Positions 1,636-44,605 of a DNA stretch of 45,249 nt are shown piece by piece. Source of the DNA: Gemmataceae bacterium (GTDB lineage: Bacteria > Planctomycetota > Planctomycetia > Gemmatales > Gemmataceae); contig SIAQ01000033.1 of assembly GCA_009697105.1 (NCBI GenBank), positions 1 through 45,249 of the forward strand, given 5' to 3'. The notes under the pieces are model-generated. The model saw only the letters and a program-made list of their open reading frames with translations. It was not told the origin of the DNA and searched no databases. A program made the translations under genes and the position numbers. The first letter of the stretch is position 1; each line of letters opens with the position of its first letter.

Positions 1636-1688
1636 CCGCTTGCGGCTTAGCGCTCTCAACGAATCATCCGAGCGCCAAGCCGCAAGCG
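1636..1688. repeat. Family A nested palindrome (copy 1)
   Basis: The left arm at 1636-1655 is the consensus CCGCTTGCGGCTTAGCGCTC. The right arm at 1670-1688 is its reverse complement with one change (GAGCGCCAAG). The spacer is 14 bases. It lies in the divergent intergenic region, 39 bases before the M24 peptidase start. Confidence 0.85.
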
Positions 1689-1727
1689 AAATTTTGCATA
1701 TACAGAATCGACGATAGGAGATTCACC

Positions 1728-2918
1728 ATGTTCGACCTTGGCAAAATCCAGGCCGTGTTGCGGGAAGACAAACTCGATGGCTGGCTACTGTACGATTTTC
1801 GCGGTCTTAATGTCTTGGCTCGCCGTATCCTCGACATGCCCAGCGAAAAAATGCTGTCACGCCGCTGGTACTACTTCATCCCCGCGACAGGCGAACCGCG
1901 ACGGCTCGTGCACCGTATCGAGTCGGCGGCGCTCGACCATGTGCCGGGGTCGAAGGACATCTACCTTCGCTGGCAAGATTTAGAAAAATCGGTCGGCACG
2001 TTGGTGCAAGGCGTCACGCGAGTGGCGATGGAGTACGTGCCACGCAACGCCAATCCTTACGTCTCGCGCGTCGATGCCGGTACGGTCGAGCTCGTGCGAT
2101 CCTTTGGCGTGGACATCGTTCCCTCGGGCGATCTGATTCAGCGTTTTGAAGCCTGCTGGGACGACGACCAATGGGCCATGCACCTCGAAGCAGCCAAACA
2201 CACACGCTCGGCATATGACGTGGCCTTCGAGTTCATCGCCGACATGGTCCGCGACGGCATCCCGATCCGGGAGACCACAGTGCAGCAAGTCATCCTCGAT
2301 CATTTTGAACGCAATGGCGTCGCGGCGGATCACGCGCCGATCGTCGCCGTTGGCCCCAACAGCGGCGATCCCCATTATGAGCCGAAAGCGGGGGAAGATG
2401 CACCGATCCGCGAAGGCGACTTTGTGCTGATCGATCTATGGGCGAAATGCAAAAAGCCGCGGGCGGTGTATAGCGATCTGACGCGGACGGCGTTTGTGGG
2501 CAAGGAGGTGCCGCCGCGCTATCAGGAAATTTTCGCGATCGTCGCCGCTGCTCGTGACGCCGCCATCGCCAAGGTGCGTTCGGCCTTCGCCACGAAAACG
2601 CCGTTACTCGGCTGGGAGGTCGATCACGCTTGTCGCCAGGTTATCGAGAAGGCCGGCTATGGCGAGTATTTCTGTCATCGCACCGGACATTCGATAGGTC
2701 AGGAAGTCCACGGCAACGGCGCGAACATGGACAGCCTGGAGACCCGCGAAGATCGCCGAGTCATGCTGCGTACGTGTTTTTCGGTCGAGCCGGGCATTTA
2801 CCTGCCGGAGTTCGGCATCCGCAGCGAAGTCGACGTGTTCGTCGATAGCGATGGCAAGGTGCACGTCACCGGCGGCGACCCGCAAACCTTCGTGCCGGCG
2901 CTGCTGGCGGGGAAGTGA
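1728..2918 (+). CDS. M24-family metallopeptidase (Xaa-Pro aminopeptidase-like)
   Basis: This 396-residue protein is a creatinase/aminopeptidase P fold enzyme that would remove N-terminal residues next to proline, or act on a related substrate, in the cytoplasm. An N-terminal creatinase-like domain (about 1-150) is followed by the pita-bread catalytic domain. The five dinuclear-metal ligands can be placed: Asp in VLIDLWA, Asp in YSDLTRT, His in HRTGHSIGQEVHG, Glu in CFSVEPGIY and Glu in GIRSEVDVFV. The start is the ATG at 1728 with AGGAG at 1716-1720; the reading frame remains open far upstream, but that extension runs through the palindrome and is not credible. The exact substrate is not visible in the sequence. 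Confidence 0.9.
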   Translation: MFDLGKIQAVLREDKLDGWLLYDFRGLNVLARRILDMPSEKMLSRRWYYFIPATGEPRRLVHRIESAALDHVPGSKDIYLRWQDLEKSVGTLVQGVTRVAMEYVPRNANPYVSRVDAGTVELVRSFGVDIVPSGDLIQRFEACWDDDQWAMHLEAAKHTRSAYDVAFEFIADMVRDGIPIRETTVQQVILDHFERNGVAADHAPIVAVGPNSGDPHYEPKAGEDAPIREGDFVLIDLWAKCKKPRAVYSDLTRTAFVGKEVPPRYQEIFAIVAAARDAAIAKVRSAFATKTPLLGWEVDHACRQVIEKAGYGEYFCHRTGHSIGQEVHGNGANMDSLETREDRRVMLRTCFSVEPGIYLPEFGIRSEVDVFVDSDGKVHVTGGDPQTFVPALLAGK

Positions 2919-2925
2919 GATAAGA

Positions 2926-3046
2926 GTTGTCAGTTGTCAGTTGTCAGTAACGTTAATAAGCCGGAACGCTTTGGCTACGCCAGCTTTGGCCCGAACTGTT
3001 GATCAGTTAGTATTTGTTGGCTGCCTGACAACTGACAACTGACAAC
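2926..3046. repeat. Inverted repeat built of 7-bp TTGTCAG units
   Basis: The left arm at 2926-2947 holds three head-to-tail TTGTCAG units. The right arm at 3025-3046 is its exact 22-base reverse complement. They are separated by 77 bases without a gene. The element starts 7 bases after the M24 peptidase stop and ends 16 bases before the cupin start. Confidence 0.9.
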
Positions 3047-3062
3047 TAAACCAGAGAAATCC

Positions 3063-3425
3063 ATGCCAACCGCATCCTACCTCGCCATCGACGCCAACGC
3101 CATGCCCTGGGAAGAACGCTTCAACGAGCATATCGGGCGAGCGCTTTTCCGCAAGGAACTCTTCAGCGATCCCGAAACGGGCATGATGGTTCGGCTCGTG
3201 CGCTACCCGGCCGGCGTCATCAATCCGGACCACACGCATCCGTGCGGACATGGAATGTACGTGCTCGAAGGCACGCTCGTCACGCATCTCGGCCGCTACG
3301 GGCCGGGCAGTTTCGTCTGGTTTCCTGAAGGCGAAACGATGCAGCACGGTGCGAGTGCCGACGGCGATGTCGTCGTCGTGTTCATTACCAACAAGCCGTT
3401 TCGCATTGATTATGTCAAGCCATGA
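3063..3425 (+). CDS. Small cupin-domain protein (ChrR-like cupin)
   Basis: This 120-residue protein is a single beta-barrel cupin. The first metal-binding motif is visible as DHTHPCGHGMYVLEG (two or three His and a Glu around residues 59-71). The second is visible near GPGSFVWFPEGETMQHG. Small stand-alone cupins of this type act as metal-dependent dioxygenases, isomerases or sensors, and the substrate cannot be read from sequence. Its stop overlaps the start of the ATP-grasp gene by four bases (ATGA at 3422-3425), so the two are almost certainly co-translated. A link to the C1 pathway downstream is an inference from this coupling. Confidence 0.82.
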   Translation: MPTASYLAIDANAMPWEERFNEHIGRALFRKELFSDPETGMMVRLVRYPAGVINPDHTHPCGHGMYVLEGTLVTHLGRYGPGSFVWFPEGETMQHGASADGDVVVVFITNKPFRIDYVKP

Positions 3426-4561
3426 CGACCGCTAGCCGTACCCATTCGCCGACTGTGATCCTGATCGGCGCCAGCGTGCGTGCGGCGGCGGACTCGGCGG
3501 CGCGCGCAGGCTGGACGACGTGGTGTGCCGACCTGTTCGCGGATCGAGACCTGCGTCTTCACACCGATGCACGGGCAATTGCGAGCGAGCAGTATCCGCA
3601 TGCCTTCCTCGACCTACTCAAACACGCACCGGCAGCGCCGGTGATCTATACGGGTGCGTTGGAAAATCACCCGGCTCTGATCGCGAAGATCGATAGGCCG
3701 ATCTGGGGCAACCCGCCCGACGTGCTGTGCGAAGTGCGTGACCCATCGCTCTGGACGGCTGCTCTCGCCGATGCCAGGCAGCCTCACCCTCGCGTTGCAC
3801 GTGAACCCCAGACTACGGGACGCTGGCTCCTCAAGCCGATTCGCAGCGCGGCAGGGATAGGTATCGTTCCGTATCAGCGTCAAGTGTTCAATCCTCGCAC
3901 GCATTTCTTGCAACAACAGATCGAAGGCACACCCGTCTCGGCTCTCTGCCTCGGCCAGGGCGATACGGCGATCCTCCTCGGCGTCACCGCGCAACTTATC
4001 GGCACGCCCTGGCTGAACGCCAGCGGATTCCACTATGCGGGCAGCTATGGGCCGCTCTCGTTTGCGCAAAAGGAACTCGAACGCTGGGCGACTTTGGTCA
4101 GTGTCCTTGGCAAGCGATTCCGTCTTCGCGGCCTGTTCGGCATCGACGCGATCATGCAAAATGGTACGCCTTGGCCGATCGAGATTAATCCACGCTACAC
4201 GGCTTCGGTCGAAATCGTCGAACGTGCCACCGGAATCGCGTTGCTCGATTGGCATCGCCATGTCATTGAAGGCGACTCAACACGCACATTGGACACGCCG
4301 TGGCCGAAGACGTGTCACGGTAAAGCGGTGATGTACGCCAAAGAAACGTTCGACTTTCCGCACGATGGTCCGTGGATGAATTCGCTCGCACGTCGAACGG
4401 ATCTCGACAGCATCGCCTTCGCCGACATCCCCGACGCCGGCACAACAATCCTCGCGGGCCAACCCGTGCTGACGTTCTTCGCATCCGCGCTGAACACGTC
4501 CCAATGCGCCTCGCGGCTTGAAGAAATCGCCGCCACACTCGCCCGAACCTTGTGGGGATGA
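3422..4561 (+). CDS. ATP-grasp family protein, probably of the H4MPT C1-gene set
   Basis: This 379-residue protein has an N-terminal nucleotide-binding-like region (VILIGASVRAAADSA) followed by an ATP-grasp fold. The core signals are WLLKPIRSAAGIGI (ATP-binding lysine and loop, around residues 134-147), LQQQIEGTPVSAL, and the metal-binding end FGIDAIMQNG..PWPIEINPRYTAS. The EINPR motif is diagnostic for ATP-grasp ligases. Proteins of this architecture (COG2232-like, called orf17 in methylotrophs) are recurrent members of bacterial H4MPT-linked C1 gene clusters. The mch gene 188 bases downstream supports that assignment. Its reaction is not established; a carboxylate-amine ligation in cofactor synthesis is the usual guess. 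Its start overlaps the cupin stop. Confidence 0.8.
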   Translation: MTTASRTHSPTVILIGASVRAAADSAARAGWTTWCADLFADRDLRLHTDARAIASEQYPHAFLDLLKHAPAAPVIYTGALENHPALIAKIDRPIWGNPPDVLCEVRDPSLWTAALADARQPHPRVAREPQTTGRWLLKPIRSAAGIGIVPYQRQVFNPRTHFLQQQIEGTPVSALCLGQGDTAILLGVTAQLIGTPWLNASGFHYAGSYGPLSFAQKELERWATLVSVLGKRFRLRGLFGIDAIMQNGTPWPIEINPRYTASVEIVERATGIALLDWHRHVIEGDSTRTLDTPWPKTCHGKAVMYAKETFDFPHDGPWMNSLARRTDLDSIAFADIPDAGTTILAGQPVLTFFASALNTSQCASRLEEIAATLARTLWG

Positions 4562-4603
4562 TAAAACGAGTGGGGAGTGACATAAGACCAATGACCAAGC
4601 AAT

Positions 4604-4689
4604 TTGTAGGGTGTGTCAAGCGCCAGCGCCGACGCACCAGACCCCGCAAGGAATGGTGCGTCGGCGCTGGCGCTTGACACACCCTACAA
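4604..4689. repeat. Perfect 36-bp inverted repeat (large hairpin)
   Basis: Arms at 4604-4639 and 4654-4689 are exact reverse complements over 36 bases with a 14-base spacer. Each arm can itself fold, because GGTGTGTC near one end pairs with GACGCACC near the other. It lies between the ATP-grasp gene and mch, on the same strand. There is no T-tract. The GTAGGGTG...GCACC flavour recalls intergenic palindromes of other bacteria, from memory. Confidence 0.95.
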
Positions 4690-4749
4690 TCGCGGAATCG
4701 CTCAAGTTATTTATGCGCGGATCCTAACCACCGACCAAGGATTATTGAA

Positions 4750-5706
4750 GTGAGCACAACGCCGACATTGAACGAACGAGCCATGCGGCTCGCCGATTTC
4801 GCATCCAATAGCGCCGCGGCTTTGAGGCTGCAGGTACACTCGACCGCATCCGGGGCACGCATCATCGATTGCGGCGTCAAGTCGGCAGGCGGGCTTCAAG
4901 CCGGTTTGACGCTGGCACGCATCTGCCTCGCTGGCCAGGCGGAGGTCGGAATCGTGACTGGCGATGTCGCTGGTATCGGCTGCCCGCATGTAACGGTGAG
5001 CAGTGATAATCCGGTGCTCGCGTGCATGGCCTCGCAGTATGCCGGCTGGGCGGTCTCGGTCGGCAAGTTCTTCGCCATGGGCTCAGGGCCAATGCGAGCG
5101 GCACGCGGGACGGAAGAAGTCTTCGCGCATATCCCAGGCAAAGAACAATCGCCAGTCGCCGTCGGCACACTCGAATCGCGCAAGCTTCCCGACGATGCGG
5201 TGATCGAATATCTCGCCAGCGAATTGAAGCTTCCCGCGAACAAGCTCACGCTGCTCGTCGCTCCTGCCGCGAGTCAGGCGGGCAACCTACAAGTCGTAGC
5301 TCGTTCGCTCGAAACCGCGTTGCACAAATTGCACGAGTTGAAATTCGATCTCAATCAAGTCGTCTCCGGCTTCGGCTCCGCACCGCTGCCGCCCGTTGCG
5401 AAGGACGAACTCGTCGCCATTGGCCGCACCAATGATGCGATTCTCTACGGCGGTCGGGTCACGATCTGGGTACAAGCGTCTGACGAGCAACTCGCCGAAA
5501 TTGGGCCCAAGGTTCCCGCGTGTGCGTCAGCCGACTATGGCGAGCCGTTCGCATCGATCTTCGCACGCTACAATCACGACTTCTACAAAATCGACCCGAT
5601 GCTCTTCAGCCCCGCGGAGATCGTCTTCTGCAACCTGACGACCGGCCGCGCGTTCGCCTTTGGTCGCACGCGGTCGGAGGTGTTGCAGCAATCGTTTTTC
5701 GAGTGA
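4750..5706 (+). CDS. mch: Methenyltetrahydromethanopterin cyclohydrolase
   Basis: Mch (EC 3.5.4.27) interconverts methenyl-H4MPT and 5-formyl-H4MPT in cytoplasmic C1 transfer linked to the archaeal-type cofactor tetrahydromethanopterin. The 318-residue length matches the family. Recognisable blocks include LNERAMRLADFA at the N-terminus, DCGVKSAGGLQAGLTLARIC, PHVTVSSDNPVLACMASQYAGW, FFAMGSGPMRA, and the C-terminal FSPAEIVFCNLTTGRAF. The start is taken as GTG at 4750, because the LNE..R block near the N-terminus is part of the family; an internal ATG at 4781 would remove it. The Shine-Dalgarno is weak (AAGG at 4737-4740). The pathway is known in methanogens, methylotrophs and planctomycetes. 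The other pathway genes (fae, mtdB, fhc) are not in this window. Confidence 0.93.
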   Translation: MSTTPTLNERAMRLADFASNSAAALRLQVHSTASGARIIDCGVKSAGGLQAGLTLARICLAGQAEVGIVTGDVAGIGCPHVTVSSDNPVLACMASQYAGWAVSVGKFFAMGSGPMRAARGTEEVFAHIPGKEQSPVAVGTLESRKLPDDAVIEYLASELKLPANKLTLLVAPAASQAGNLQVVARSLETALHKLHELKFDLNQVVSGFGSAPLPPVAKDELVAIGRTNDAILYGGRVTIWVQASDEQLAEIGPKVPACASADYGEPFASIFARYNHDFYKIDPMLFSPAEIVFCNLTTGRAFAFGRTRSEVLQQSFFE

Positions 5707-5728
5707 TCGCCGGCGTTTCGCAATTCCC

Positions 5729-5823
5729 GTTTAGCCGCTCGCCTTTGGCGAGCGCGAACGCAGCGTATTTGCGATCGCCCGAAAAACGTCATGCCCTCGC
5801 TCGCCAAAGGCGAGCGGCTAAAC
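5729..5823. repeat. Family B nested palindrome (copy 1)
   Basis: Arms of 26 bases at 5729-5754 and 5798-5823 are perfect reverse complements. Each arm contains the hairpin core CGCTCGCCTTTGGCGAGCG (8-bp stem, 3-base loop) or its complement. The spacer is 43 bases. The element ends 29 bases before the permease start. Confidence 0.93.
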
Positions 5824-5852
5824 GACTCAAACGTTTACGACGAGACCACGTC

Positions 5853-7232
5853 ATGCAACCGCTTCAGGATTGGCTAGGCAAATTCTTGCTCCAGATGCTC
5901 AACGATTCCGTCAATCTCGTCGCGGGGTTGATCGGAGTCGCCGTCGTCCTCGCCGGGGCCACCTACGTCGTTGCCAAGCCGAAGTTGTTCCTGCTCGGCA
6001 TCAAAAATCTTCGCCGTCACCTCGTGCGCACCGCTCTCACCGCGATGGCGATTGCCGTGCTCGCATTCATGATTACGACAATCTGGACCGTCATCTACTT
6101 CATCGAACTCGCCACCAGGGAACGCGCGAAGGACCTCAAAATCATCATCACCGAACGCTGGCAGATTCCCAGCCAAATCCCATCGGCCTACGGCAAATAT
6201 CTCGATCCTTCGTCCACCAGCTTCCTTCCCGACCTGCAAGAGAATGGCAAACCCAAATTCTACGGCCCGAAAGATTTCATGTCGTGGTCCTTCTTCGGCG
6301 GCACGCTCGACCCGAACAAACGCTCGCCCGAGAATCTCATCTTCTTCTTCGCGATGAACCCCGACCACATCATCCCCATGATGGACGACCTCGGCGATCT
6401 TGACCCGAAACTTATCGACGCCCTCAAGAACAACCTGCGCGGCTGCCTGATGGGCTCGGAAAAAATGACGGCCGTTAACAAACGAGTCGGCGAACGCTTC
6501 AAGGTTTCCAGCATCAACTACAAGGGCATCGACAACGTCGAATTCGAGATCGTCGGCGCCTTACCCGATGGGCGCTACAATCAGAGTGCCATCATGAACA
6601 ACGACTATTTCCATAGACTGTTCGATGATTACAAAAACAAAAAACAAGAAGCCCATCCGCTGGCGAAGAAAAACCTCAACCTCGTCTGGATTCGCGTCGC
6701 CGACCGGGAACAGTTCGACCGCGTCGGCAACCTGCTCGAGAATTCGCCGTATCTCAAAGACCCGTCCGTAAAGGTCGAGACCGCGTCGTCGGGCATCAGT
6801 TCATTTCTCGACGCATACAAAGATTTGCTGCTCGCGATGAAGTACCTGCTCGTGCCTGGCATGATGGTCGTCATGTCGCTGGTGATGGCCAACGCGATCA
6901 GCATCACCGTACGCGAACGCCGCATGGAGATGGCGGTGATGAAGGTGCTCGGCTACAGCCCGAATCAGGTTTTGCTGCTCATCCTCGGCGAAGCGATGCT
7001 GATTGGCGCCATCGCCGGTTTCGCCGCCGCGCTGACGACGTATTTGTTCTTCAATCTGAAGTGGGGAGGCATCCCGTTCCGCATCGCGTTCTTCCCGGTC
7101 TTCCGCATCCCCGAGGCGTCGCTTTTCTGGGGCCTGGCGATCGGCTCCATCGCATCGTTCGCTGGCAGCATCGTCCCGGCATGGACGGCCCGCGAGGTGA
7201 AAGTGTCGGAAGTGTTCTCGAAGGTGGCGTGA
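5853..7232 (+). CDS. ABC transporter permease, FtsX/MacB type
   Basis: This 459-residue inner-membrane protein has an N-terminal membrane segment (about residues 17-40) and a second at about 57-83 (LTAMAIAVLAFMITTIW). A long extracytoplasmic region follows, then a C-terminal FtsX domain with three further segments. The signature turn RERRMEMAVMKVLGYSPNQV, between the second-last pair of segments, is typical of FtsX/LolC/MacB permeases. Such permeases work with a separate ATPase in lipoprotein release, macrolide export or cell-envelope signalling. No ATPase gene is adjacent here, so the partner must lie elsewhere. The ATG at 5853 gives a sensible N-terminus just after the palindrome; the frame is open further upstream but that part overlaps mch. 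Confidence 0.88.
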   Translation: MQPLQDWLGKFLLQMLNDSVNLVAGLIGVAVVLAGATYVVAKPKLFLLGIKNLRRHLVRTALTAMAIAVLAFMITTIWTVIYFIELATRERAKDLKIIITERWQIPSQIPSAYGKYLDPSSTSFLPDLQENGKPKFYGPKDFMSWSFFGGTLDPNKRSPENLIFFFAMNPDHIIPMMDDLGDLDPKLIDALKNNLRGCLMGSEKMTAVNKRVGERFKVSSINYKGIDNVEFEIVGALPDGRYNQSAIMNNDYFHRLFDDYKNKKQEAHPLAKKNLNLVWIRVADREQFDRVGNLLENSPYLKDPSVKVETASSGISSFLDAYKDLLLAMKYLLVPGMMVVMSLVMANAISITVRERRMEMAVMKVLGYSPNQVLLLILGEAMLIGAIAGFAAALTTYLFFNLKWGGIPFRIAFFPVFRIPEASLFWGLAIGSIASFAGSIVPAWTAREVKVSEVFSKVA

Positions 7233-7272
7233 ATTCTCATTGAACGGCAAACGAGCCATGGCTACATTCGGG

Positions 7273-7324
7273 GCTTGCGGCGTAGCGATCGCGTGGCGTT
7301 TTGTGAGCGCTAAGCCGCAAGCGG
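7273..7324. repeat. Family A nested palindrome, left arm degenerate (copy 2)
   Basis: The right arm at 7305-7324 matches the family consensus exactly (GAGCGCTAAGCCGCAAGCGG). The left arm at 7273-7290 keeps GCTTGCGG and then has two substitutions. It lies between the converging permease and methyltransferase genes. Confidence 0.75.
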
Positions 7325-7349
7325 CGACGCAGGGAAGTTGTTTTTCACA

Positions 7350-8150
7350 TCAGGCATTTCCCCACACCAGAAATCCCGTCATCGCGCTGAAGAAGCGACC
7401 TTCTCGCTGTAAGGCATCCATGTGGTCGAGCCAGGCGGCGGCTTCGTTCGGCGTAATCGTACCGTTCTTTTCCGCCAAATCGACGGTTGCTTGGCCCACA
7501 AGCAGTAGCGCGATCTCCGGCGTCAGGCTCAGCGTGTGCGGGACGGCGGCGACTTCCTTCAGACCGGCTTCGTGAAACAAGCGCGGGATGCGACGGCCTA
7601 GCCAACCGTTGCGCACGCTGTCGCTCCACGCATTGATGATCTTGCGGCCCAGCACGCGGTCGGCGGCGTCGATCATGAGGGCACCGAAATCGACTTCGAA
7701 CACGACGACCCTGCCGCCGGGCTTCGTCACACGCTTCATTTCGGCAATGGCCAGTGCGGGATCGGGCACATGCATCAGGCTACGGTCGGCGCGCGTCGCA
7801 TCGAAGCTGCCGTCGGTATAAGGCAGCGCCAGAGTGTCGGCGATTTTAAACGCGGTCGGCAGCTTTGTGCCAACGGAACGTTTGTCGGCCTCGGCGATCA
7901 TCGCTCGGCTATTGTCCACGCCGACGGCCTGGCCACCTGGCGCGACGAGTTTCGCCATGATGCGCACGTCATCGCCCGTGCCACACCCGACGTCGAGTAC
8001 GCGCGAGCCGGGCTTGAGTTCGAGCAACTCGTTCATGCGGTTCTTGTACGCTTGAAAGGTCGCTTCCGCACAGGCGGCATCGAGAAAACGGATGAAGTAG
8101 TCGGCGTTGGCCGTGTTATCGATGCGGCCAAACTGTGCGAGGTGGGACAT
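7350..8150 (-). CDS. Class I SAM-dependent methyltransferase (UbiE/Methyltransf_11-like)
   Basis: This 266-residue protein is a cytoplasmic S-adenosylmethionine-dependent methyltransferase. Motif I is VLDVGCGTGDDVRIMA (about residues 51-66), with a following acidic strand end in VGVDNSRAMI. The post-core block DRSLMHVPDPALAIAEMKRV and the strand GGRVVVFEVDFG fit the Methyltransf_11/UbiE class. The start is placed at the ATG ending at 8150 (MSHLAQFGRI). A longer frame to 8204 begins inside a family A palindrome and would add an artefactual SAKPQA peptide. The substrate is unknown; small-molecule methylation is likely from the fold. Confidence 0.87.
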   Translation of the reverse strand: MSHLAQFGRIDNTANADYFIRFLDAACAEATFQAYKNRMNELLELKPGSRVLDVGCGTGDDVRIMAKLVAPGGQAVGVDNSRAMIAEADKRSVGTKLPTAFKIADTLALPYTDGSFDATRADRSLMHVPDPALAIAEMKRVTKPGGRVVVFEVDFGALMIDAADRVLGRKIINAWSDSVRNGWLGRRIPRLFHEAGLKEVAAVPHTLSLTPEIALLLVGQATVDLAEKNGTITPNEAAAWLDHMDALQREGRFFSAMTGFLVWGNA

Positions 8151-8182
8151 TTTGAAAATCCAATCGCGGGAGATTCTGTATT

Positions 8183-8236
8183 CCGCTTGCGGCTTAGCGC
8201 TCACTTGGGTTGAAGTGCGCGTTAAGCCGCAAGCGG
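8183..8236. repeat. Family A nested palindrome (copy 3)
   Basis: The left arm at 8183-8202 is the exact consensus. The right arm at 8217-8236 differs at its first few bases (GCGCGTTAAG) and is otherwise complementary. It sits in the divergent region between the methyltransferase and the DUF1080 gene. Confidence 0.85.
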
Positions 8237-8333
8237 CGAAATCGAAAGTCCCATTTTACAATCCCGCGTGATTGGCGTCTGCGTACAATATCATCCATTC
8301 CGAAACCGTATCACTCTTATCACGAGGTGTCAC

Positions 8334-8978
8334 ATGAATGCTTTTCGCCGGTTCGCCTGTTTTACGATTCTCGCCTTCGCGCTGATCGGCGCGAGCCAAG
8401 GCCAGGAAAAAGCGGCCTGGGTCAATCTGCTCGAAGGCAAGGACCTGGCCAAGAACTGGACCACCAAAGGCAACTGGATTCTCGGCGATGACGGCGTCGT
8501 CGCCCTCGTGCCGCGCAACGGCGAATCGGGCTGGCAGCGCTATGACGCCTATCTCTGGGCCAAGGAGCAGTACAAGGAATTCGAGTGCGAATTCGAATAC
8601 AAGGTCGCCAAGAACGGCAACAGCGGGTTCTACTTCCACGTCAGCGATGTCAAAAGCCCCGTCGCCAAGGGCATCGAAGTCCAACTCTACGATTCCGCGT
8701 CGAGACCGAAGGGCGCCAAGCTGAACGATCACGATTCCGGCGGCATCATCCCCGGCATCCCGCCGACCAAGAACACAGCCAAACCCGCCGGCGAATGGAA
8801 TAAGATGCTCGTCACTGTAAAGGGCAACAAGGTCGTCGTGTCGCTGAACGGCGAAGTCGTCAACGATGTGCCGCTCGATGCCAAAACGCTCAAAGGCCGA
8901 CCGACCACCGGCACCATCGGCTTCCAGGATCACGGCCTGCCGTTGTGGCTGCGCAACATCAAGGTGCGCGGGTTGTAA
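8334..8978 (+). CDS. Secreted DUF1080 protein (3-keto-disaccharide hydrolase/LamG-like)
   Basis: This 214-residue protein begins with a signal peptide (MNAFRRFACFTILAFALIGASQGQ), so it acts outside the cytoplasm. The mature part is a single DUF1080 concanavalin-like beta-sandwich. It shows the typical opening WVNLLEGKDLAKNW, the central EFECEFEYKVAKNGNSGFYF, the GIEVQLYD strand and the closing IGFQDHGLPLWLRNIKVRGL. DUF1080 is greatly expanded in planctomycetes; some members hydrolyse 3-keto-glycosides and others are probably carbohydrate-binding. The ATG at 8334 has GAGG at 8324-8327. An upstream in-frame ATG would destroy the signal peptide. Confidence 0.92.
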   Translation: MNAFRRFACFTILAFALIGASQGQEKAAWVNLLEGKDLAKNWTTKGNWILGDDGVVALVPRNGESGWQRYDAYLWAKEQYKEFECEFEYKVAKNGNSGFYFHVSDVKSPVAKGIEVQLYDSASRPKGAKLNDHDSGGIIPGIPPTKNTAKPAGEWNKMLVTVKGNKVVVSLNGEVVNDVPLDAKTLKGRPTTGTIGFQDHGLPLWLRNIKVRGL

Positions 8979-8988
8979 AGAGGGCTGT

Positions 8989-9069
8989 GTTTAGCCGCTC
9001 GCCTTTGGCGAGCGCGAACAGGTGCTACACATTCTGCAGGTCACGCTCGCCGAAGGCGAGCGGCTAAAC
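8989..9069. repeat. Family B nested palindrome (copy 2)
   Basis: Arms at 8989-9014 and 9044-9069 (26 bases each) are reverse complements with one difference, which falls in the small loop (TTT on one side, TTC on the other). The spacer is 29 bases. It fills nearly all the space between the DUF1080 stop and the next start, 14 bases downstream. Confidence 0.93.
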
Positions 9070-9082
9070 GAGGAGTATCAAA

Positions 9083-9958
9083 ATGAATCGTCCCCGCATC
9101 AGTGTCTTCCCCAAATGCTACTTCGACGAACTGTACTCCGGAAAAATGGATTATCTCGATTGGCTCCGCACCGCTGCAACGCTCGGCGGCGAAGGCGTCG
9201 AGCACTACGACGGCTTCTTCAAAGCGGGCGTCGAACCCGTCAATCGCGTGCTGCGCGAGACCGGACAGATATCGTCGATGCTCTGCTTCTCGCCCGACTT
9301 CACGCATCCCGATGCCGCCGAGCGCGCTCGCCAAGTGAAACGGCAGCACGCGGCGATCGACCTGTGCGTCGCGCTCGGCATCCGCAATTGCCGAACGCTC
9401 AGCGGGCAACGCTTCCCTGGCATGACGCGCAAGGAAGGCATAGAGCGCACGGTCGAAGGCGTTCGCCGATCGCTCGAATATGCCGAATCGCACGATGTCG
9501 TTCTTTGCATGGAGAACCATTACAAAGACGGCAATTGGCAGTACCCCGAATTCGCGCAACCGGAGGACATCTTCCTGGAGATCATTGGCCGAATCAATTC
9601 GCCCTATTTCGGCGTGCAGTATGACCCGTCGAATGCGGTCGTGGGCGGGTTCGATCCCGTTGCGTTTTTGGAGAAGATCAAGACGCGCGTGGTGACGATA
9701 CACGCTTCGGATCGCTACCTCGTCGACGGCGCGACGATCGACGAGCTTCGCCAATCCGATGGCACGATCGGCTACTCCGACAAGCTCCGCCACGGCGAGA
9801 CGGGTAAGGGCCTGAACGACTACGACGCGATCTTTCGCATTCTGCGCAGCGTCAATTACAGCGGCTGGATCTCGGTCGAAGATGGCATGAACGGCTTGGA
9901 TGAGCTACGGGGTTCCGTGGAGTTTCTCAAACAAAAGCGCGGCGAGTATTATTCCTGA
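9083..9958 (+). CDS. Sugar phosphate isomerase/epimerase family TIM barrel
   Basis: This 291-residue protein belongs to the AP endonuclease 2/xylose isomerase-like TIM-barrel superfamily (COG1082). Signals are the strand LGGEGVEHYDGFF, the conserved VVLCMENHYKDG with a metal-binding Glu and neighbouring His, YFGVQYDPSNAVVGG, VVTIHASDRYLV (metal His and Asp), and the final strand GWISVEDGMNG with Glu. These residues form a divalent-metal site used for ketose/aldose isomerisation or epimerisation. There is no signal peptide, so the site of action is cytoplasmic. It follows the DUF1080 gene on the same strand, separated by a palindrome. A shared role in carbohydrate breakdown is possible but inferred. 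Confidence 0.9.
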   Translation: MNRPRISVFPKCYFDELYSGKMDYLDWLRTAATLGGEGVEHYDGFFKAGVEPVNRVLRETGQISSMLCFSPDFTHPDAAERARQVKRQHAAIDLCVALGIRNCRTLSGQRFPGMTRKEGIERTVEGVRRSLEYAESHDVVLCMENHYKDGNWQYPEFAQPEDIFLEIIGRINSPYFGVQYDPSNAVVGGFDPVAFLEKIKTRVVTIHASDRYLVDGATIDELRQSDGTIGYSDKLRHGETGKGLNDYDAIFRILRSVNYSGWISVEDGMNGLDELRGSVEFLKQKRGEYYS

Positions 9959-9988
9959 GGAGCACCGTAACTTCCCGATTTCGTTTTT

Positions 9989-10042
9989 CCGCTTACGGCT
10001 TAGCGCTCATATGGCACCCTGCGAGTGCTAAGCCGCGAGCGG
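9989..10042. repeat. Family A nested palindrome (copy 4)
   Basis: The left arm at 9989-10008 has one change from consensus (CTTACGG), and the right arm at 10023-10042 has two (GAGTGCTAAG, CGCGAGCGG). The spacer contains the frequent ATGGCACCC motif. It lies between two converging genes. Confidence 0.85.
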
Positions 10043-10110
10043 CAAATCAGGAAGTTATTGTTTCGGTTTTCCCAAGCGGGGAGAAGGCATCCTGAAGGAC
10101 GCGTCGCCAT

Positions 10111-11202
10111 TCATTTCGCGTAGAGTTCGTAGTTATTGAAGAGCAGGTTCTTCTCGCCCTTCTTGTTTTTTGCCGGCACAGGTTTCTGAAAGGCATCGCG
10201 CCAAATGTAGAGCGTATCCGCATCACGGCGGAGCCACTCGTTGGCACGCTCGCCGACCACGTTGTCAAAATATTTGACGATGGACTCATCCAGCCCAGTT
10301 TTCAGTAGCTTTACGCCGACTAGGTTTGTCTCCAATTCGGAGACGCCGATCAATTCGTGCTTCTTGCTTTTCTTGAGTTTGACGCTCTTTTCAACGGTCT
10401 TGGCGAAGTCGCGCATTTTGGTGTCTTCCTTACCGCAGAAGAACACGGCTGCGGTGGCGTGCTCCAAGCACGCCTTTTTTAGGATGTTGGAAACGCCGAA
10501 GGTACGGCTTCCGATCGTCGGCTGAAGCGTCAGGAAGGCCGCGCCGATGATATCATGCCCTTCGGAACGTTTTTCTACAGTCGGTAGTTTGCCGAACATG
10601 GACGGCGGCGTCAGCCTGTAGCGGTTCCATTCCGCGTTCATCCAGATGGCGCCGAGCGTGGCGCCGCTTTCGGCGCCGAGGACCAGGATATTCGAGGTGC
10701 TGCATGCGCCGTCATCGTTTTTGCGATCGAGATATGCTCGAATCGCGGCGATATCGTTGACCAGGACCGGCATGTAAGCGATCGATTTGATGTAGTCCTT
10801 GACTTCAATGGCGGCGGAATCCTTGGTTTTGACGTTGTTTCTGTTCACGGGGTGAATCCGAAAATCGTCAGGAACGTCGATGGTCGTGCTCTCGCCGTGC
10901 CCGCGGAAGTCAAAGGTGACGACGGAGTAGCCTTTTTTTTGCAAGGTCTCGGCAAGCTTCTTCCAATCCTGCACACGCGAGCTTTTGCCTTCGCCGATCG
11001 GATGGAGCATGATGACAACGGGGGCATTCTTCTTGGCGCTTTGAAAAAAGTTACCTCGCAGCTTGACGCCGTCGATAGTAGTGATGTTGATCGGTTCCGT
11101 ATTTGCCACTTGGCCTTGGGCCGAGAGGTCGGGCACAATCCCGATTACGAGCAACGAAAACGCCAACAATACAAAGCATAGCGGCCTGGAAACGCAGGAC
11201 AT
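10111..11202 (-). CDS. Secreted alpha/beta hydrolase-fold protein
   Basis: This 363-residue protein starts with a hydrophobic export signal (CFVLLAFSLLVIGIV, processing near LSAQ). The fold is visible as APVVIMLHPIGEGKS (oxyanion region, about 60-74), GYSVVTFDFRGHGES (strand and turn, about 91-105) and NILVLGAESGATLG (nucleophile elbow, Ser179). The elbow reads A-E-S-G-A instead of the classic G-x-S-x-G, which is tolerated in the fold. A late acid/His pair could not be placed with confidence, so activity is uncertain. The C-terminal third is lysine-rich and has no recognised motif. The protein is probably a periplasmic esterase-like enzyme. Confidence 0.78.
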   Translation of the reverse strand: MSCVSRPLCFVLLAFSLLVIGIVPDLSAQGQVANTEPINITTIDGVKLRGNFFQSAKKNAPVVIMLHPIGEGKSSRVQDWKKLAETLQKKGYSVVTFDFRGHGESTTIDVPDDFRIHPVNRNNVKTKDSAAIEVKDYIKSIAYMPVLVNDIAAIRAYLDRKNDDGACSTSNILVLGAESGATLGAIWMNAEWNRYRLTPPSMFGKLPTVEKRSEGHDIIGAAFLTLQPTIGSRTFGVSNILKKACLEHATAAVFFCGKEDTKMRDFAKTVEKSVKLKKSKKHELIGVSELETNLVGVKLLKTGLDESIVKYFDNVVGERANEWLRRDADTLYIWRDAFQKPVPAKNKKGEKNLLFNNYELYAK

Positions 11203-11993
11203 GATGTATCTCCCTCTGCTTGCACCAACGCCAACCCTACTCTTGGATGATAAAGGGAAACGGCTACGAGGTCAAGAATACGATTTCGTAATGATTGGAA
11301 GTTGCCAGGCGAAGCAGAGGCGTCACGCGGAATGATGAAAAAAACCGCCCTTTCCGCGCGGCCTGGGGCCGATCACGGCGGAGAGTGCGGTAGGACCCGA
11401 AAGTTCCCAGCTTGCGGGTCACGGTCGGCAAGGCGCGGTTCTCCGAGCGAATCATCTTGCTTCCGGAATCCGGAAGGCGACTGCTCCCACGCCGTGCCAA
11501 CCTTGCCAAGGCCAAGTCCTTGCGAAAAAACCGCGCCTTATACAGGCTCTGTCGAGGGAACGCCTCCAGCGCCCCAGTCCCGCGACTTTGGTTTCGTCTG
11601 ACACCGAACCGCGGCAACAATCGCCCAATCCTAGGGCAGATTCGCTACCGCCCGAAGTTCCACGGAACCTCGATCTTGGTATCCGTAATTATGGTGGGCG
11701 GAGCGAAACCCGCCACTGTTCAAACCGCTACAGCGAAAATCCACCTAAGCGTGCCGATAAAACAGGAATTGCGGCATCTTCATGGGGGATGCGGCTTTCC
11801 GAAAATTGGGCTACGTGAGGAATCAGTGATTTCCCCGATCTGCTTTTCGGTTATCTTTTTTTGGATTATTGAAATTGAGGACGGGTCATCGAACAGCTGA
11901 AGATCGACCTGCTCGTAATTCACAAATAGCCCGCCCTTTATGGCGGGGCCTCTTGTAAATCGCGTTATTAATGCTGGGTAATGTACAGACCGG
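11203..11993. other. Gene-poor stretch of about 790 bases
   Basis: No convincing gene was found. Open frames of 118 residues (minus, 11264-11620) and 162 residues (plus, 11412-11900) overlap one another, lack Shine-Dalgarno sequences and have arginine-rich low-information products. A perfect 17-base palindrome centred on one A (CTTCCGGAATCCGGAAG) lies at 11460-11476. A small GC hairpin lies near 11930. The base composition turns AT-rich toward 11850. The stretch could be a decayed mobile element or a structured untranslated region. Confidence 0.5.
11928..11949 (-). terminator. Possible terminator of the small gene at 11994-12488
   Basis: The hairpin AGCCCGCC / GGCGGGGC has a loop of about six bases and lies 45 bases after the stop of the minus-strand gene. 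In that direction it is followed by a short T-rich CTATTTG. The T-tract is weak, so this is tentative. Confidence 0.35.
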
Positions 11994-12488
11994 TCACTTC
12001 GGTTGCTGTTGTTCTTGCAGTTTCGCGGCCTGGTCGTTTTGGTGTGCTGCTTCGGAAAGGGGACCGATGATACCGAGCAGGTGGCTGAGTTGCCCGACGC
12101 GCATTCCATAGCGGTCGATGAATTCCTGAAGGGCGAATTCGCTGTCCAGCGTGTCGTCGCCGTTCTGCGCAAGATCGTCCACCATGGAGGCCAATAAGCG
12201 GACGTACACTTTCTCGATGATTGGATAAGCGGATTTGCAGTTGGCTGCGAAATCGGGTTGTTCCTCGTCAAAACGCCCGAGAATGTTCCGCCAACGGGAA
12301 ACCGAATCGGCCGCCTTAGCCTGGGCGAATTTCAGTTGCTCGCGTTGCACGGCCAACATTTGCGAGAAACCATCACGCTGCAGTTCCAACATTTGGTAGA
12401 GAACCTGAGTGACGGCATCGCTGCCGGTCGGTGGTTGCGTCGGTGAAGCCGGCCTGACGTTTGAACCAATATCGAATTGAAACTGCAT
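11994..12488 (-). CDS. Hypothetical protein, helical, 164 residues
   Basis: I do not recognise this protein. It has no signal peptide or membrane segment. Residues 25-65 (VTQVLYQMLELQRDGFSQML and following) look like a coiled coil with regular leucine/glutamine spacing. The middle is acidic, and the C-terminus ends in a glutamine-rich tail (QEQQQPK). It lies immediately downstream of the Ser/Thr kinase on the same strand with 260 bases between them, so it could be a partner or substrate, but nothing in the sequence proves it. The ATG ending at 12488 is preceded by GAAAGGG, an acceptable ribosome site. Confidence 0.65.
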   Translation of the reverse strand: MQFQFDIGSNVRPASPTQPPTGSDAVTQVLYQMLELQRDGFSQMLAVQREQLKFAQAKAADSVSRWRNILGRFDEEQPDFAANCKSAYPIIEKVYVRLLASMVDDLAQNGDDTLDSEFALQEFIDRYGMRVGQLSHLLGIIGPLSEAAHQNDQAAKLQEQQQPK

Positions 12489-12702: not shown

Positions 12703-12748
12703 CTCGCGGGATGATCCGATCGCAACGCCGCAAGCGAAAATCAGGCCC

Positions 12749-17181: not shown

Positions 17182-17268
17182 CTTTGGCGAGCCTAGCCGC
17201 ATTAACGGCAGGTTGAACGTACTATTGCTCGCGTCAACCTGCCGCTTACGCGGTTAGGCTCGCCAAAG
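17182..17268. repeat. Imperfect 35-bp inverted repeat
   Basis: Arms at 17182-17216 and 17234-17268 pair with only a few mismatches and a 17-base spacer. The arm can fold on itself (GCCG / CGGC in its middle). It ends 36 bases before the start of the amidinotransferase-like gene. Confidence 0.92.
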
Positions 17269-18129: not shown

Positions 18130-18143
18130 GCAATTCGCATATT

Positions 18144-18197
18144 CCGCTTGCGGCTTAGCGCTCGGATTATTCCACGCGAGCGCTAAGCCGCAAGCGG
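18144..18197. repeat. Family A nested palindrome, perfect (copy 6)
   Basis: Arms at 18144-18163 and 18178-18197 match the 20-base consensus and its reverse complement exactly, with a 14-base spacer. The element starts 15 bases after the preceding stop. Confidence 0.95.
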
Positions 18198-18323
18198 AGG
18201 TGCATGATGCCTACTCAGAATGATCGGTTTGCCCATTTCATTCGTCTTTTCTATGTGTAAATGGAAGAGAACCCGACATCGTTATGGTTTCCTCGCATAT
18301 CCCAGCCATGAAACGGATGAACC

Positions 18324-22741: not shown

Positions 22742-22755
22742 TGGCGATGATGTTG

Positions 22756-22810
22756 CCGCTTGCGGCTTAGCGCTCGCATGGTGCCATGCTGAGCGCTAAG
22801 CCGCAAGCGG
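22756..22810. repeat. Family A nested palindrome, perfect (copy 7)
   Basis: Arms at 22756-22775 and 22791-22810 are exact, and the spacer itself contains the palindrome GCATGGTGCCATGC, so the whole element is nested. It lies between the converging SPFH and pgi genes. Confidence 0.95.
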
Positions 22811-22828
22811 CAATGCAAATCGAGACGA

Positions 22829-33193: not shown

Positions 33194-33246
33194 CCGCTTA
33201 CGGCTTAGCGCTCGAAAAAACACACGAGAGCGCTAAGCCGCAAGCG
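33194..33246. repeat. Family A nested palindrome (copy 9)
   Basis: The left arm at 33194-33213 has one change (CTTACGG), and the right arm at 33228-33246 is complementary. The spacer is 14 bases and A-rich. It lies between the large hydrolase-like gene and mtaB, both on the minus strand. Confidence 0.9.
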
Positions 33247-36242: not shown

Positions 36243-36308
36243 TTCCGAGTCTGAGCGCCAGCGCCAGCGAAGGGCGTGGAGTGCCCTTCGCTGGCGCTCA
36301 GGCTCGGA
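36243..36308. repeat. Inverted repeat between convergent genes
   Basis: The left arm at 36243-36275 and the right arm at 36282-36308 pair closely; the left arm carries an extra tandem GCGCCA. The spacer is six bases. It begins two bases after one stop codon and ends six bases before the other, so it could serve as a bidirectional terminator, although no T-tracts flank it. Confidence 0.92.
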
Positions 36309-36314
36309 ATCAAC

Positions 36315-37740: not shown

Positions 37741-37811
37741 TCCCGCATATAGCTCGCCATTTATGGCGGGTTCCGCACTTACTCGCCATAAATGACGAGC
37801 CGTATGCGGGA
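37741..37811. repeat. 28-bp inverted repeat upstream of a zinc-ribbon gene
   Basis: Arms at 37741-37768 and 37784-37811 pair with few mismatches across 28 bases. Within the left arm CGCCAT/ATGGCG forms its own hairpin. It ends 21 bases before the ATG at 37833, inside the leader or promoter. Confidence 0.92.
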
Positions 37812-38504: not shown

Positions 38505-38552
38505 TCTCACATCATCATGCAGCGATTCGTATTCGCGTTGTCGACGCCTAAT

Positions 38553-38614
38553 GTCAGAGCCGCGCTCGCAGTAAGCGGATTTTCCAAACCGCATACTGCG
38601 TGCGCGGCTCTGAC
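38553..38614. repeat. 26-bp inverted repeat between convergent genes
   Basis: Arms at 38553-38578 and 38589-38614 pair over 24 of 26 bases. Each arm contains a small hairpin (GAGC/GCTC). It lies six bases after the CDGSH stop on the minus side and 48 bases after the zinc-ribbon gene. Confidence 0.92.
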
Positions 38615-38619
38615 AGACA

Positions 38620-38871: not shown

Positions 38872-38923
38872 CGCTTGTCGTTTTGCGCTCGGAATAACCC
38901 ATGCGAGCGCTAAACGACAAGCC
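38872..38923. repeat. Family A-like palindrome, diverged inner part (copy 10)
   Basis: Arms at 38872-38890 (CGCTTGTCGTTTTGCGCTC) and 38905-38923 (GAGCGCTAAACGACAAGCC) pair at nearly every position, but the middle of the arm differs from the consensus (TTGTCGTTTTGCG). It is a sub-family with coordinated changes in both arms. It is close to the CDGSH start. Confidence 0.88.
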
Positions 38924-41268: not shown

Positions 41269-41349
41269 GTTTAGCCGCTCGCCTTCAGCGAGTGCGACCT
41301 GCATATCTTGCTACACCTGTTCGCGCTCGCCGAAGGCGAGCGGCTAAAC
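41269..41349. repeat. Family B nested palindrome (copy 5)
   Basis: The left arm at 41269-41294 and right arm at 41324-41349 (26 bases each) pair with two mismatches. Core changes (CTTCAGCGAG) mark a sub-variant. The spacer is 29 bases. It fills the gap between the hydrolase at 41353-42534 and the DCC gene, both on the minus strand. Confidence 0.93.
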
Positions 41350-42534: not shown

Positions 42535-42641
42535 CGTAATTATCTCGGCAGGTGGGAAGAACGAGCGTTGAAATGATTGTATCTGATTTGCCTTCGGCGA
42601 TGTTTCAAGTCTAACGAGACCGACAAAAGGCATCTCTCCAT

Positions 42642-42698
42642 CGGAGGCTGAAGCGTAAGCGAGGCATTCAGACTGCCTCGCTTACGCTTCAGCCTCGG
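42642..42698. repeat. 25-bp inverted repeat
   Basis: Arms at 42642-42666 and 42674-42698 pair over 24 of 25 bases with a seven-base spacer. The core reads GGCTGAAGCGTAAGCGAGGC. The right arm overlaps the last codons and stop of the possible small ORF at 42682-42813. Confidence 0.95.
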
Positions 42699-42813
42699 AA
42701 ATCACATTTTGCTTGACGAACTCGTTGCGCCAGCGTTTCGGCACCGTTGCAAAGGCGTGCTCATACGTCGCTTCGAGCGGCAGTTCAACGCAGCCGTCCG
42801 GTTCGAGGAACAC
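42682..42813 (-). CDS. Possible 43-residue ORF or gene remnant
   Basis: A GTG-started frame ending with TAA encodes a peptide with protein-like composition (LEPDGCVELPLEATYEHAF, then ATVPKRWRNEFVKQN) and GC-rich third positions like its neighbours. It starts 18 bases after the stop of the hydrolase gene at 42831. Its last five codons (SEAEA) and stop come from the right arm of a palindrome. There is an in-frame stop just upstream of the GTG and no clear ribosome site. It could be a very short gene or the end of a longer gene cut by the palindrome's arrival. Confidence 0.3.
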   Translation of the reverse strand: MFLEPDGCVELPLEATYEHAFATVPKRWRNEFVKQNVISEAEA

Positions 42814-43874: not shown

Positions 43875-43949
43875 CGCGCTTTCCTCCCTGATCAACCGAG
43901 CGGTATCGGCGAAACGTGGGAGAAAGTCAAGTCGAATTGGATTTGCCTG

Positions 43950-43969
43950 CCGCTTGCGGCTTAGCGCTC
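43950..43969. repeat. Family A half element (copy 11)
   Basis: An exact left arm (CCGCTTGCGGCTTAGCGCTC) and the spacer ACAGGACGCCATGCG are present. The right arm is decayed to CGACCGTAAG. It lies between the SET gene and the lipoprotein hydrolase. Confidence 0.88.
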
Positions 43970-44018
43970 ACAGGACGCCATGCGACCGTAAGAACCCGAT
44001 GCAATAACAACAAAACGC

Positions 44019-44480
44019 TCACCCCTCGCGCAAGAACGCCAGAGCCACGGGCCGCAGCCGATCGCGATCCCGTGCCGACAATTCGAACCACGGCCGAATC
44101 ACGCCGCGACAACTCGCCGACCCGCACAGGCAGCGCAGTTGCCAGCCCGCCTCGGCGATGGATGTCGAATAATCCCACGCGATTTGGTCGCCCGCGGCGA
44201 TATCATGCAGAGCGAACAGTGCCGGTTCGCCGGTAACGAAGCCAGCGTTCGGGTCGCAGGAGTGATTGATGTAATCGTCGAGATTCCCGCCAGCAGAGCA
44301 CAGCCATTCATCGGGGCCGACTTGCATCGCATGCCAATCGTCGTCCAGTTTATCGCTTGGCGCGATCCAGCCCTGGCATACGACCAGGCATGTCCCGCGG
44401 GCGATCGCTTCTGTAGCATAGACGCCACGACCCGTGTTGGGCGTATCGCGGATTTCAAGAGGTGGCGTCGCTGCGGACAT
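44019..44480 (-). CDS. SET-domain protein (putative protein lysine methyltransferase)
   Basis: This 153-residue protein is a compact SET domain with its cysteine-rich post-SET part, a fold that methylates lysine residues using S-adenosylmethionine. The N-terminal turn GRGVYATEAIARGT (about 17-30), the pseudo-knot motif YINHSCDPNAGF (Asn72-His73-Ser74-Cys75) and the catalytic AWDYST with Tyr104 are present. The post-SET block CLCGSASCRG (Cys117, Cys119, Cys124) together with Cys75 would bind one zinc ion. No DNA-binding or chromatin module is fused. Bacterial SET proteins occur sporadically, with unknown targets. The start ATG ends at 44480, next to a family B palindrome and divergent from the Deg-like gene. 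Confidence 0.92.
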   Translation of the reverse strand: MSAATPPLEIRDTPNTGRGVYATEAIARGTCLVVCQGWIAPSDKLDDDWHAMQVGPDEWLCSAGGNLDDYINHSCDPNAGFVTGEPALFALHDIAAGDQIAWDYSTSIAEAGWQLRCLCGSASCRGVIRPWFELSARDRDRLRPVALAFLREG

Positions 44481-44497
44481 ATGTGGGATACCATTTA

Positions 44498-44605
44498 GTT
44501 TAGCCGCTCGCCTTTGGCGAGCGCGTGCTGGTTGTTTGCTGTTATTTGCGGAATATCGCCACGTCCGCGCTCGCGCTCGCGCTCGCCAAAGGCGAGCGGC
44601 TAAAC
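44498..44605. repeat. Family B nested palindrome with longer spacer (copy 6)
   Basis: Arms at 44498-44523 and 44580-44605 (26 bases each) are exact reverse complements. The 56-base spacer ends in a partial tandem of CGCGCT units. It occupies most of the divergent region between the SET gene and the Deg-like gene. Confidence 0.95.

Follow-up and report, generated by a model that had tools for sequence, protein, structure and literature searches.

How do palindromes of different sequence come to share one architecture, and one kind of place, between the genes of a single bacterium? The question is raised by contig SIAQ01000033.1 of a Gemmataceae bacterium (assembly GCA_009697105.1, positions 1 to 45,249, hereafter the window). 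The window is a complete contig (C96) from a 5.4-Mb draft assembly, about 92% complete and split into 187 contigs. A preliminary description, made from the sequence alone, had noted some 26 intergenic sites in the window, each with two inverted copies of an arm, and had proposed that several unrelated families share a principle of mobilization. Our analysis indicates that the pairs are probably non-autonomous elements of the REPIN/BIME type (paired repetitive extragenic palindromes, or REPs, also known as bacterial interspersed mosaic elements), spread by several divergent lineages of REP-associated tyrosine transposases (RAYTs) and sharing a limited number of slots between genes.

A stem search of the window recovers 20 inverted pairs, rather than about 26: eight of family A, four of family B and eight single sites. 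Three weaker intergenic candidates, at 31230-31263 (12-nt arms, score 12) and at 11430 and 17071 (score 11), are at chance level and were excluded. All of the single sites named earlier are real, with starts that agree within a few bases, and the measured arms (19-36 nt) and spacers (1-77 nt) slightly widen the ranges first given (20-36 bp and 6-77 bp). Seventeen of the pairs have a stem score of at least 16, whereas the search yields 0, 1 and 2 sites, each scoring 13, in three dinucleotide-Markov versions of the window. Folded as single-stranded DNA, each of nine pairs does better than 200 of 200 shuffles. The small hairpin that many arms were said to contain is borne out for the tested arms of family B (1 of 200 shuffles equally good) and of site 4604 (9/200), is weak for 17182 (24/200) and 37741 (35/200), and is no better than shuffling for 38552 (105/200) or for family A (86/200). 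Nineteen of the 20 pairs lie between called genes. The exception (1637-1688) lies within a called gene, the start of which has probably been set too early; the calls come from our own small codon model (562 genes, 80% coding) rather than a standard caller, and some starts are wrong. The pairs are listed here without strand, together with what occupies the same interval in a relative, G006, and with the RAYT loci (L numbers) that their families flank.

1637..1688: family A pair (CGCTTGCGGCTTAGCGCTC arms); retained in G006; family A flanks RAYT L030/L119.
2925..3047: inverted period-7 tandem array (AGTTGTC, 3.4 copies), a separate class; the same interval in G006 holds a family A pair.
4604..4689: GTAG-footed REP pair with perfect 36-nt arms; 7-pair cluster in 828 kb; the same interval in G006 holds a family B pair.
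5728..5824: family B pair (GTTTAGCC plus GC hairpin); retained in G006; family B flanks RAYT L035.
7268..7327: family A pair, degraded; retained in G006.
8183..8236: family A pair; related variant in G006, both arms changed.
8989..9069: family B pair; retained in G006.
9985..10046: family A pair; no alignment to G006 (contig end).
12649..12704: GAGCC-footed pair (GAGCCGGAAGCGTAAGCGACGG family); the family flanks RAYTs L082-L085; retained in G006.
17182..17268: GGCGAGCC-footed pair; 8-pair cluster in 828 kb; foot as in the flanks of T24 RAYTs.
18143..18198: family A pair; the same interval in G006 holds an unrelated palindrome.
22753..22813: family A pair; retained in G006.
33195..33246: family A pair; retained in G006, there below the score threshold.
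36243..36311: GAGCC-footed pair (GAGCCTGAGCGCCAGCGAAGG family); close variants flank RAYTs L089, L090 and L093; the G006 interval holds a family A pair.
37741..37811: ATATAGCCCGCC pair, no RAYT found; 11-pair cluster in 828 kb; retained in G006.
38552..38615: GAGCC-footed pair (AGAGCCGCGCACGCAGTAAGCGG family); the family flanks RAYTs L094, L096 and L104; retained in G006.
38873..38922: family A pair with variant arms; retained in G006.
41269..41349: family B pair; retained in G006.
42641..42699: GAGGC-footed pair; close variants flank RAYTs L023 and L038; absent from G006.
44498..44605: family B pair; one arm largely lost in G006.

The same kind of pair is abundant across the genome. Our sample of it, the window and 40 further stretches (828 kb in total), holds 318 pairs at the census cut-off (stem score of at least 15), against none in one Markov null. 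Almost all of them are intergenic (298, with 10 in called genes and 10 at stretch ends), and short, inverted, high-copy palindromes with this placement have the traits of REPINs and BIMEs. The 318 pairs fall into 43 sequence clusters, 15 of which have at least four members. Every window site above the threshold except 2925-3047 belongs to a multi-copy cluster, of 7 to 67 pairs, with the provisos that 38552 was merged with family B (44 pairs jointly) and that 12651 lies below the threshold. Consensus arm patterns, of which similar ones can share matches, occur 185 times for family A, 87 for B, 78 for the AAGCCC family, 51 for the 36243 family, 80 for the 12651 family, 26 for the 38553 family, 44 for the 42642 family, 20 for the 17182 family, 17 for 4604, 22 for another GTAG family and 57 for 37741. 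Over the whole genome the family A arm has 400 forward and 393 reverse matches with at most two mismatches, and its reversed control pattern has none. Nineteen of the 20 window pairs thus belong to families with many genome copies, and the single sites, which might have proved to occur once per genome, are all multi-copy except 2926. That site, first described as an object of the same kind, is instead an inverted period-7 tandem array. Members of one family do not gather locally: neighboring sites share a family in 44 of 277 cases against 42.8 after shuffling, so local hopping was rejected.

Which enzymes go with these families? As the preliminary description had it, no RAYT-type transposase gene lies on the window contig, in genome searches with Pfam Y1_Tnp and with a RAYT-type profile. 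Elsewhere in the genome the Pfam search gave five matches, of which those on C41 and C33 have inverted pairs on both sides, and the RAYT-type profile found three genes, on C41, C33 and C38. These three are flanked by the GTTTAGCCGC, CCCGCAGGC and AAGCCCAGGGG families, the last of which is abundant in the genome. The other Y1_Tnp genes, on C164 and C174, have no nearby pair, and a single weak pair (score 13) stands to one side of that on C67. Within the genus (seven genomes, including this one), RAYT genes stand between family A pairs (L030) and family B pairs (L035), both in G006, and pairs close to 42642 surround the RAYTs at L023 and L038. When 95 genomes of the family were searched with five RAYT queries, relatives turned up in 59, 56, 44, 63 and 47 of them, counts that overlap because the types are related.

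From these matches we assembled at least 150 distinct RAYT loci among the matches listed, in six main types and two outliers, omitting Y1_Tnp matches unlike seven representatives (IS200-like genes, for example at L009-L011 and L014-L018). Flanking pairs were sought within 330 bp, and a flank was counted as missing also at a contig end; among the matches listed, 77 of 150 loci have pairs on both sides, 52 on one side and 21 on neither. The two sides of a locus usually carry the same palindrome, with a median left-right arm similarity of 0.90 (at least 0.6 in 69 of 77), against a median between loci of 0.30 within a RAYT type and 0.24 between types. Over 128 loci, protein similarity and palindrome similarity are correlated (Mantel r 0.517; best of 2000 permutations 0.084), and the correlation is positive inside all six types, its value being reached by 0 of 2000 permutations in five of them and by 1 of 2000 in the sixth. 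The palindromes and the transposases therefore diverge together, and the idea of one RAYT serving all families was rejected. We rely on the Mantel test for the RAYT link because it needs no labels, since the type labels and motif patterns were made post hoc and partly overlap; the T24 pattern, for example, also matches 8 of 20 T29 loci.

In all, 16 window pairs match RAYT-flanking pairs of relatives, exactly or as close variants. Sites 12651, 36243, 38553 and 42642 go with the T38 type, as the same family or close variants, so these four are not unrelated in the sense first proposed. Sites 4604 and 17182 share only a foot motif with RAYT-flanking pairs (GTAG and GGCGAGC, respectively), their exact families not having been seen beside a RAYT, and 37741 has no assigned RAYT. 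The association with flanked RAYT genes supports a common principle of mobilization for several families, as first suggested, though no movement was observed. Flanks were also scored at 79 named loci that encode relatives of the family A transposase, with representatives from Phycisphaerae and the isolate Alienimonas chondri; 65 belong to the family A type, 13 to the family B type and one to another. Pairs stand on both sides of 20 of them, on one side of 41 and on neither side of 18. Planctomycete titles are carried by 77 of the 79.

The proteins themselves look like RAYTs. The HxH motif and the catalytic tyrosine of Y1 transposases (H106, H108 and Y168) are invariant in 12 rows representing six types, and profile matches in the PDB are IS200-type TnpA proteins. 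For an AlphaFold2 model of the family A type (pLDDT 91), the top Foldseek match (E 4.6e-5) is 4er8, a structure of TnpA-REP in complex with a REP hairpin, so that the TnpA-REP/IS200 fold was found for the one type that was modeled; the same model also matches further folds, of the Thg1 type. Around the tyrosine and at the feet of the palindromes the types differ. A Y----Q motif is present in 21 of 27 T38 proteins, Y---N in 15 of 20 for T29, 11 of 11 for T12 and 16 of 30 for T37, and T24 has mostly Y---Q (25/40). The foot CnGAGCC occurs at 10 of 26 flanked T38 loci. Of 23 flanked T37 loci, 17 have GT[AG]G feet, as does window site 4604; such feet were not found in the A, B, GAGCC, GGCGAGC and AAGCCC families, which have other feet.

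The second regularity is that pairs are spread one to a gap. The 298 intergenic pairs occupy 277 of 510 intervals, and only 19 intervals hold two or more, against 60-67 under random placement with three weightings (minimum 43 in 2000 runs). Sixteen of the 19 double intervals combine different families. The shortage of doubles is strong where the residual length is under 400 bp. It does not come from the stem finder: in an independent count over 293 intervals with arms, 211 have two arms, 53 have one, 20 have three and nine have four, in agreement with one pair per interval. The same holds in G006, with 12 doubles among 203 intergenic pairs against 39-45 at random, in a sample of 37 of the 40 stretches from which three overlapping ones were dropped (overlaps of about 3 kb and 0.6 kb remain). 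Gaps of every orientation are used, with occupied intervals of 80-400 bp numbering 140/233 for tandem, 28/42 for convergent and 31/53 for divergent genes; relative to their overall length, divergent gaps fall short, with 53 pairs against an expected 72.6. In tandem gaps the median distance from the upstream stop to the pair is 16 bp, and that from the pair to the following start is 79 bp (14 and 70.5 bp in G006).

The third is that an interval occupied here is often occupied in G006 as well, though by a different family. G006 is 89-97% identical to the window, and at the 19 window sites that can be aligned 14 retain the same family or a variant, including one that is partly lost and one whose arms vary. 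At 2925, 4604, 18143 and 36243 the interval is occupied by an unrelated palindrome, and the pair at 42642 is absent. For the larger sample, 36 of 40 stretches were located in G006 and 320 of 510 intervals matched, in a slot test with a stem-score cut-off of 14. Of these, 93 hold the same family in both genomes, 53 hold different families, 34 are occupied only in our genome, 21 only in G006 and 119 in neither, some of the 'only' intervals reflecting a counterpart whose decay has taken it under the threshold. Among the 227 intervals that do not share a family, 53 with different families compare with 28.4 expected under independence; stratified by residual length and gene orientation, the expectation is 30.9 and the Mantel-Haenszel odds ratio is 8.4. 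The split between same and different was set at a local alignment score of 12. By label, 48 of the 53 'different' intervals do differ and five agree, 12 of the 93 'same' intervals differ, and thresholds of 8-11 leave 45-53 different-family intervals. In 34 of 50 swapped single pairs, one border lies within 10 bp of the same offset from one flanking gene, against 20.9 for random placement (maximum 29 of 2000) and 17.7 for offsets re-paired between slots (maximum 27).

Two further observations concern individual pairs. A scan for outer arms around an inner pair gave 19 matches in 14 places, several involving two families (L050:4240, L059:18364, L070:9220 and L069:4697). Insertion into the loop of a resident would leave just such nested pairs, which makes them possible intermediates of a swap. 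In the arms, paired double changes number 14 where about 1.2 are expected. Separately, at L046:8066-8130 and in the L060 intervals from 4265 and 16543, both arms differ from G006 in a matching way; at L046:8066 the spacer is largely kept, and the arms look as if corrected against each other.

For the RAYT-spread elements that we favor, the fold, the HUH and tyrosine residues and the matched flanks suggest a mechanism in which each RAYT type, acting on single-stranded DNA, would recognize its own family by hairpin and foot. Because the foot differs by RAYT type, the recognized foot is expected to differ by type as well. The enzyme would then copy or move the pair into another intergenic place, where a newcomer may displace the resident or a second insertion in the interval may be selected against. 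Either displacement or such counter-selection would lead the families to share one limited set of slots. One pair per gap would follow equally from replacement of residents, from removal of second insertions or from a need for one hairpin in each gap. A stronger version, which we put forward only tentatively and regard as somewhat doubtful, treats intergenic space as a niche shared by more than 10 RAYT-type families under competitive exclusion, in which a newcomer replaces the resident, for example through insertion into the hairpin loop, and the slot is inherited while the sequence is not.

Several results weigh against this account, in whole or in part. About 61% of the pairs (193/318, by family labels) belong to classes with no matching RAYT in the assembly, which has only three RAYT-type genes; for this reason families A, GAGCC, GGCGAGC and GTRG lack a local enzyme of the matching type. 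Some RAYTs could be missing, as the assembly is only about 92% complete and in 187 contigs. The pairs of such classes are probably orphans here. The G006 genes for family A (L119/L030) and family B (L035), on C145 and C126, each carry an in-frame stop, and families may outlive their enzymes. Sites 37741 and 2925 lack a RAYT, and the RAYT loci with no flanking pair (21/150) or with one side only (52) include some at contig ends. The NCBIfam model NF047646 (REP_Tyr_transpos) matches seven of seven proteins at 18.9-65.6 bits, below its cut-off of 80, so automatic annotation would probably not name them RAYTs. In intervals with more than 400 bp of residual sequence the exclusion disappears (11 doubles against 13.6 at random). 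Flanks are less conserved at swapped slots (median 0.72) than at shared ones (0.97), and the swaps are therefore not clean exchanges at element borders. Five more distant congeners have a pair at 7 of 25 checked gene ends (a small and biased sample of the loci at hand), namely 5 of 13 where our genome has one and 2 of 12 where none was seen; deep conservation of slots in congeners of about 78% identity was accordingly rejected. Permissive intervals combined with purifying selection could couple slots without any replacement, a mixture of permissive and forbidden gaps can mimic the excess of swaps, and the gene caller, family labels and score thresholds are all home-made.

The alternative that fares best builds on such permissive intervals. 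Pairs may insert neutrally into permissive intervals, those not within operons, with second insertions purged for space and with neither replacement nor function. This is a serious possibility, if one we would not quite bet on. By our own arithmetic, the counts would be reproduced if about two-thirds of matched intervals were permissive and mostly filled, and the loss of exclusion above 400 bp is what such a process would leave. It accounts less well for the coupling between genomes within bins of residual length (odds ratio 15 above 200 bp, although the 60-100 bp bin alone gives p 0.051), for swaps that keep the same offset (34/50 against 20.9) and for the existence of nested elements.

It is also conceivable, though we think it unlikely, that each interval needs one long hairpin, as an end of transcription, a stabilizer of mRNA or an insulator, and that the family supplying it is incidental. 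The closeness of tandem pairs to the upstream stop (medians of 16 and, in G006, 14 bp) would fit such a need, as would the deficit in divergent gaps (53 against 72.6), the persistence of occupancy while the occupant changes, the double changes in arms (14 against about 1.2) and the rarity of U-tract terminators, present in 5/182 occupied and 6/147 empty tandem gaps and in 3/46 and 3/26 convergent ones. Divergent gaps, however, contain no gene end and are filled about equally often per 80-400 bp interval. A purely terminating role is disfavored because these gaps are so often occupied, and we rejected it despite their falling under the length expectation. Classical terminators were likewise rejected: a consensus scan of window positions 1-20000 gave 16 against 21.7 (sd 4.7) in shuffles, and over 151 pairs no T run follows the right arm, with a mean of 2.1 T in the next 8 nt and 2.0 further on. 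The pair is missing at 18 of 25 of the same gene ends in distant congeners, and such patchy occupancy disfavors an essential role.

That the pairs are instead miniature inverted-repeat transposable elements (MITEs) of ordinary cut-and-paste transposons, unconnected with RAYTs, seems to us very improbable. Two direct repeats could be read that way, from a limited set of alignments inspected by eye rather than systematically: an 8-bp direct repeat bounds the family A pair at L057 interval 14757, and another flanks a 58-bp insert in the G006 interval matching L062:11974-12172. Against this, the arms match the flanks of HUH/Y1 transposase genes and diverge with them. The 58-bp insert, which includes a palindrome and is absent from our genome, has the look of a recent MITE insertion of a different kind. 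Chance palindromes or local structures unrelated by family, for which only the diversity of sequence speaks, can be dismissed as next to impossible, and for 19 of the 20 sites are excluded outright, given the null counts (0 sites against 318) and the multi-copy families.

REP elements have mostly been studied family by family, in proteobacteria, with GTAG feet. Here one genome contains many non-GTAG families that are associated with divergent RAYT lineages and are spread one to a gap. Like REPINs and BIMEs with their RAYTs, they are short inverted palindromes, intergenic and multi-copy, with the same sequence on both sides of an HUH/Y1 transposase gene. They differ in that most families lack the GT[AG]G foot, having GTTTAGCC, GCGCTAAG, GAGCC, GGCGAGC or AAGCCC instead, and in the many families within one genome. 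Several REP families per genome, each with its own RAYT, have been published, according to the available portion of one study (PMC6006769). The same portion describes class 3 TnpA-Y1 proteins, mainly from Planctomycetes, with CnGA-footed, high-copy atypical hairpins. Our system resembles that class, as there portrayed, in its host phylum, in the Y----Q motif of 21 of 27 T38 proteins and in its high-copy atypical hairpins; CnGAGCC occurs at 10 of 26 flanked T38 loci. The other types depart from the class in that T29, T12 and T37 carry Y---N and in that T24 has mostly Y---Q. Palindromic repeats tagged with GTAG or CGTC form inverted dimers, and their presence in Planctomycetes was already noted in the accessible text of PMC3733652. 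Site 4604 and most T37 flanks, with GTAG or GTGG feet and inverted dimers, agree with what is given there, whereas five of our six RAYT types pair with families of other feet.

Turnover of REP class between relatives also has a precedent, in orthologous RAYTs of Pseudomonas and Stenotrophomonas that are flanked by different REP classes (PMC3686654, in extract). There, as far as the extract goes, the change is at the RAYT's own flanks, whereas in our genome ordinary intergenic intervals are affected. The limit of one element to an interval and the swaps of family at orthologous intervals likewise set our pairs apart from the published accounts of REPINs and BIMEs, as far as the excerpts go; neither exclusion across families nor family exchange at orthologous ordinary gaps was found described in the literature searched, which covers few subscription papers and those in part. 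Published RAYTs, those of E. coli, Stenotrophomonas and Marinomonas, work on single-stranded hairpins belonging to their own family, and the GTAG foot helps to choose the cleavage site, as shown for the Marinomonas enzyme and postulated for the others (PMC8266576, from the sections at hand). Sets of RAYTs and palindromes that differ in their presumed recognition foot should be useful for working out how transposases read single-stranded targets. If slots are truly exchanged, the families would form a measurable intragenomic community with competition, and the question of whether REPs are selfish or useful would become decidable.

A few minor features were also noted. The class to which window site 2925-3047 belongs consists of inverted arms built from a 7-nt unit that differs from place to place, with further examples at L040:4971, L042:16667, L047:17820, L049:12829 and L074:14813; period 7 accounts for 6 of 14 periodic-arm sites in the 828 kb. 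They occupy the same kind of gene gap as the pairs, and no RAYT was found for them. Inverted arrays of the CACAGAGG and CACGAAAG types, with a period of 8-9 and long spacers, are present at L059:2499, L073:4103, L047:6512, L048:15279 and elsewhere. At L037:700-1050 a cluster of GTAG direct repeats lies upstream of a RAYT, and the open frame translates part of it as an N-terminal repeat. Within the window, positions 28508-28585 hold an array of the pentanucleotide AGAGA in 15.6 copies, and G006 has a GAGCC-footed pair in that gap.

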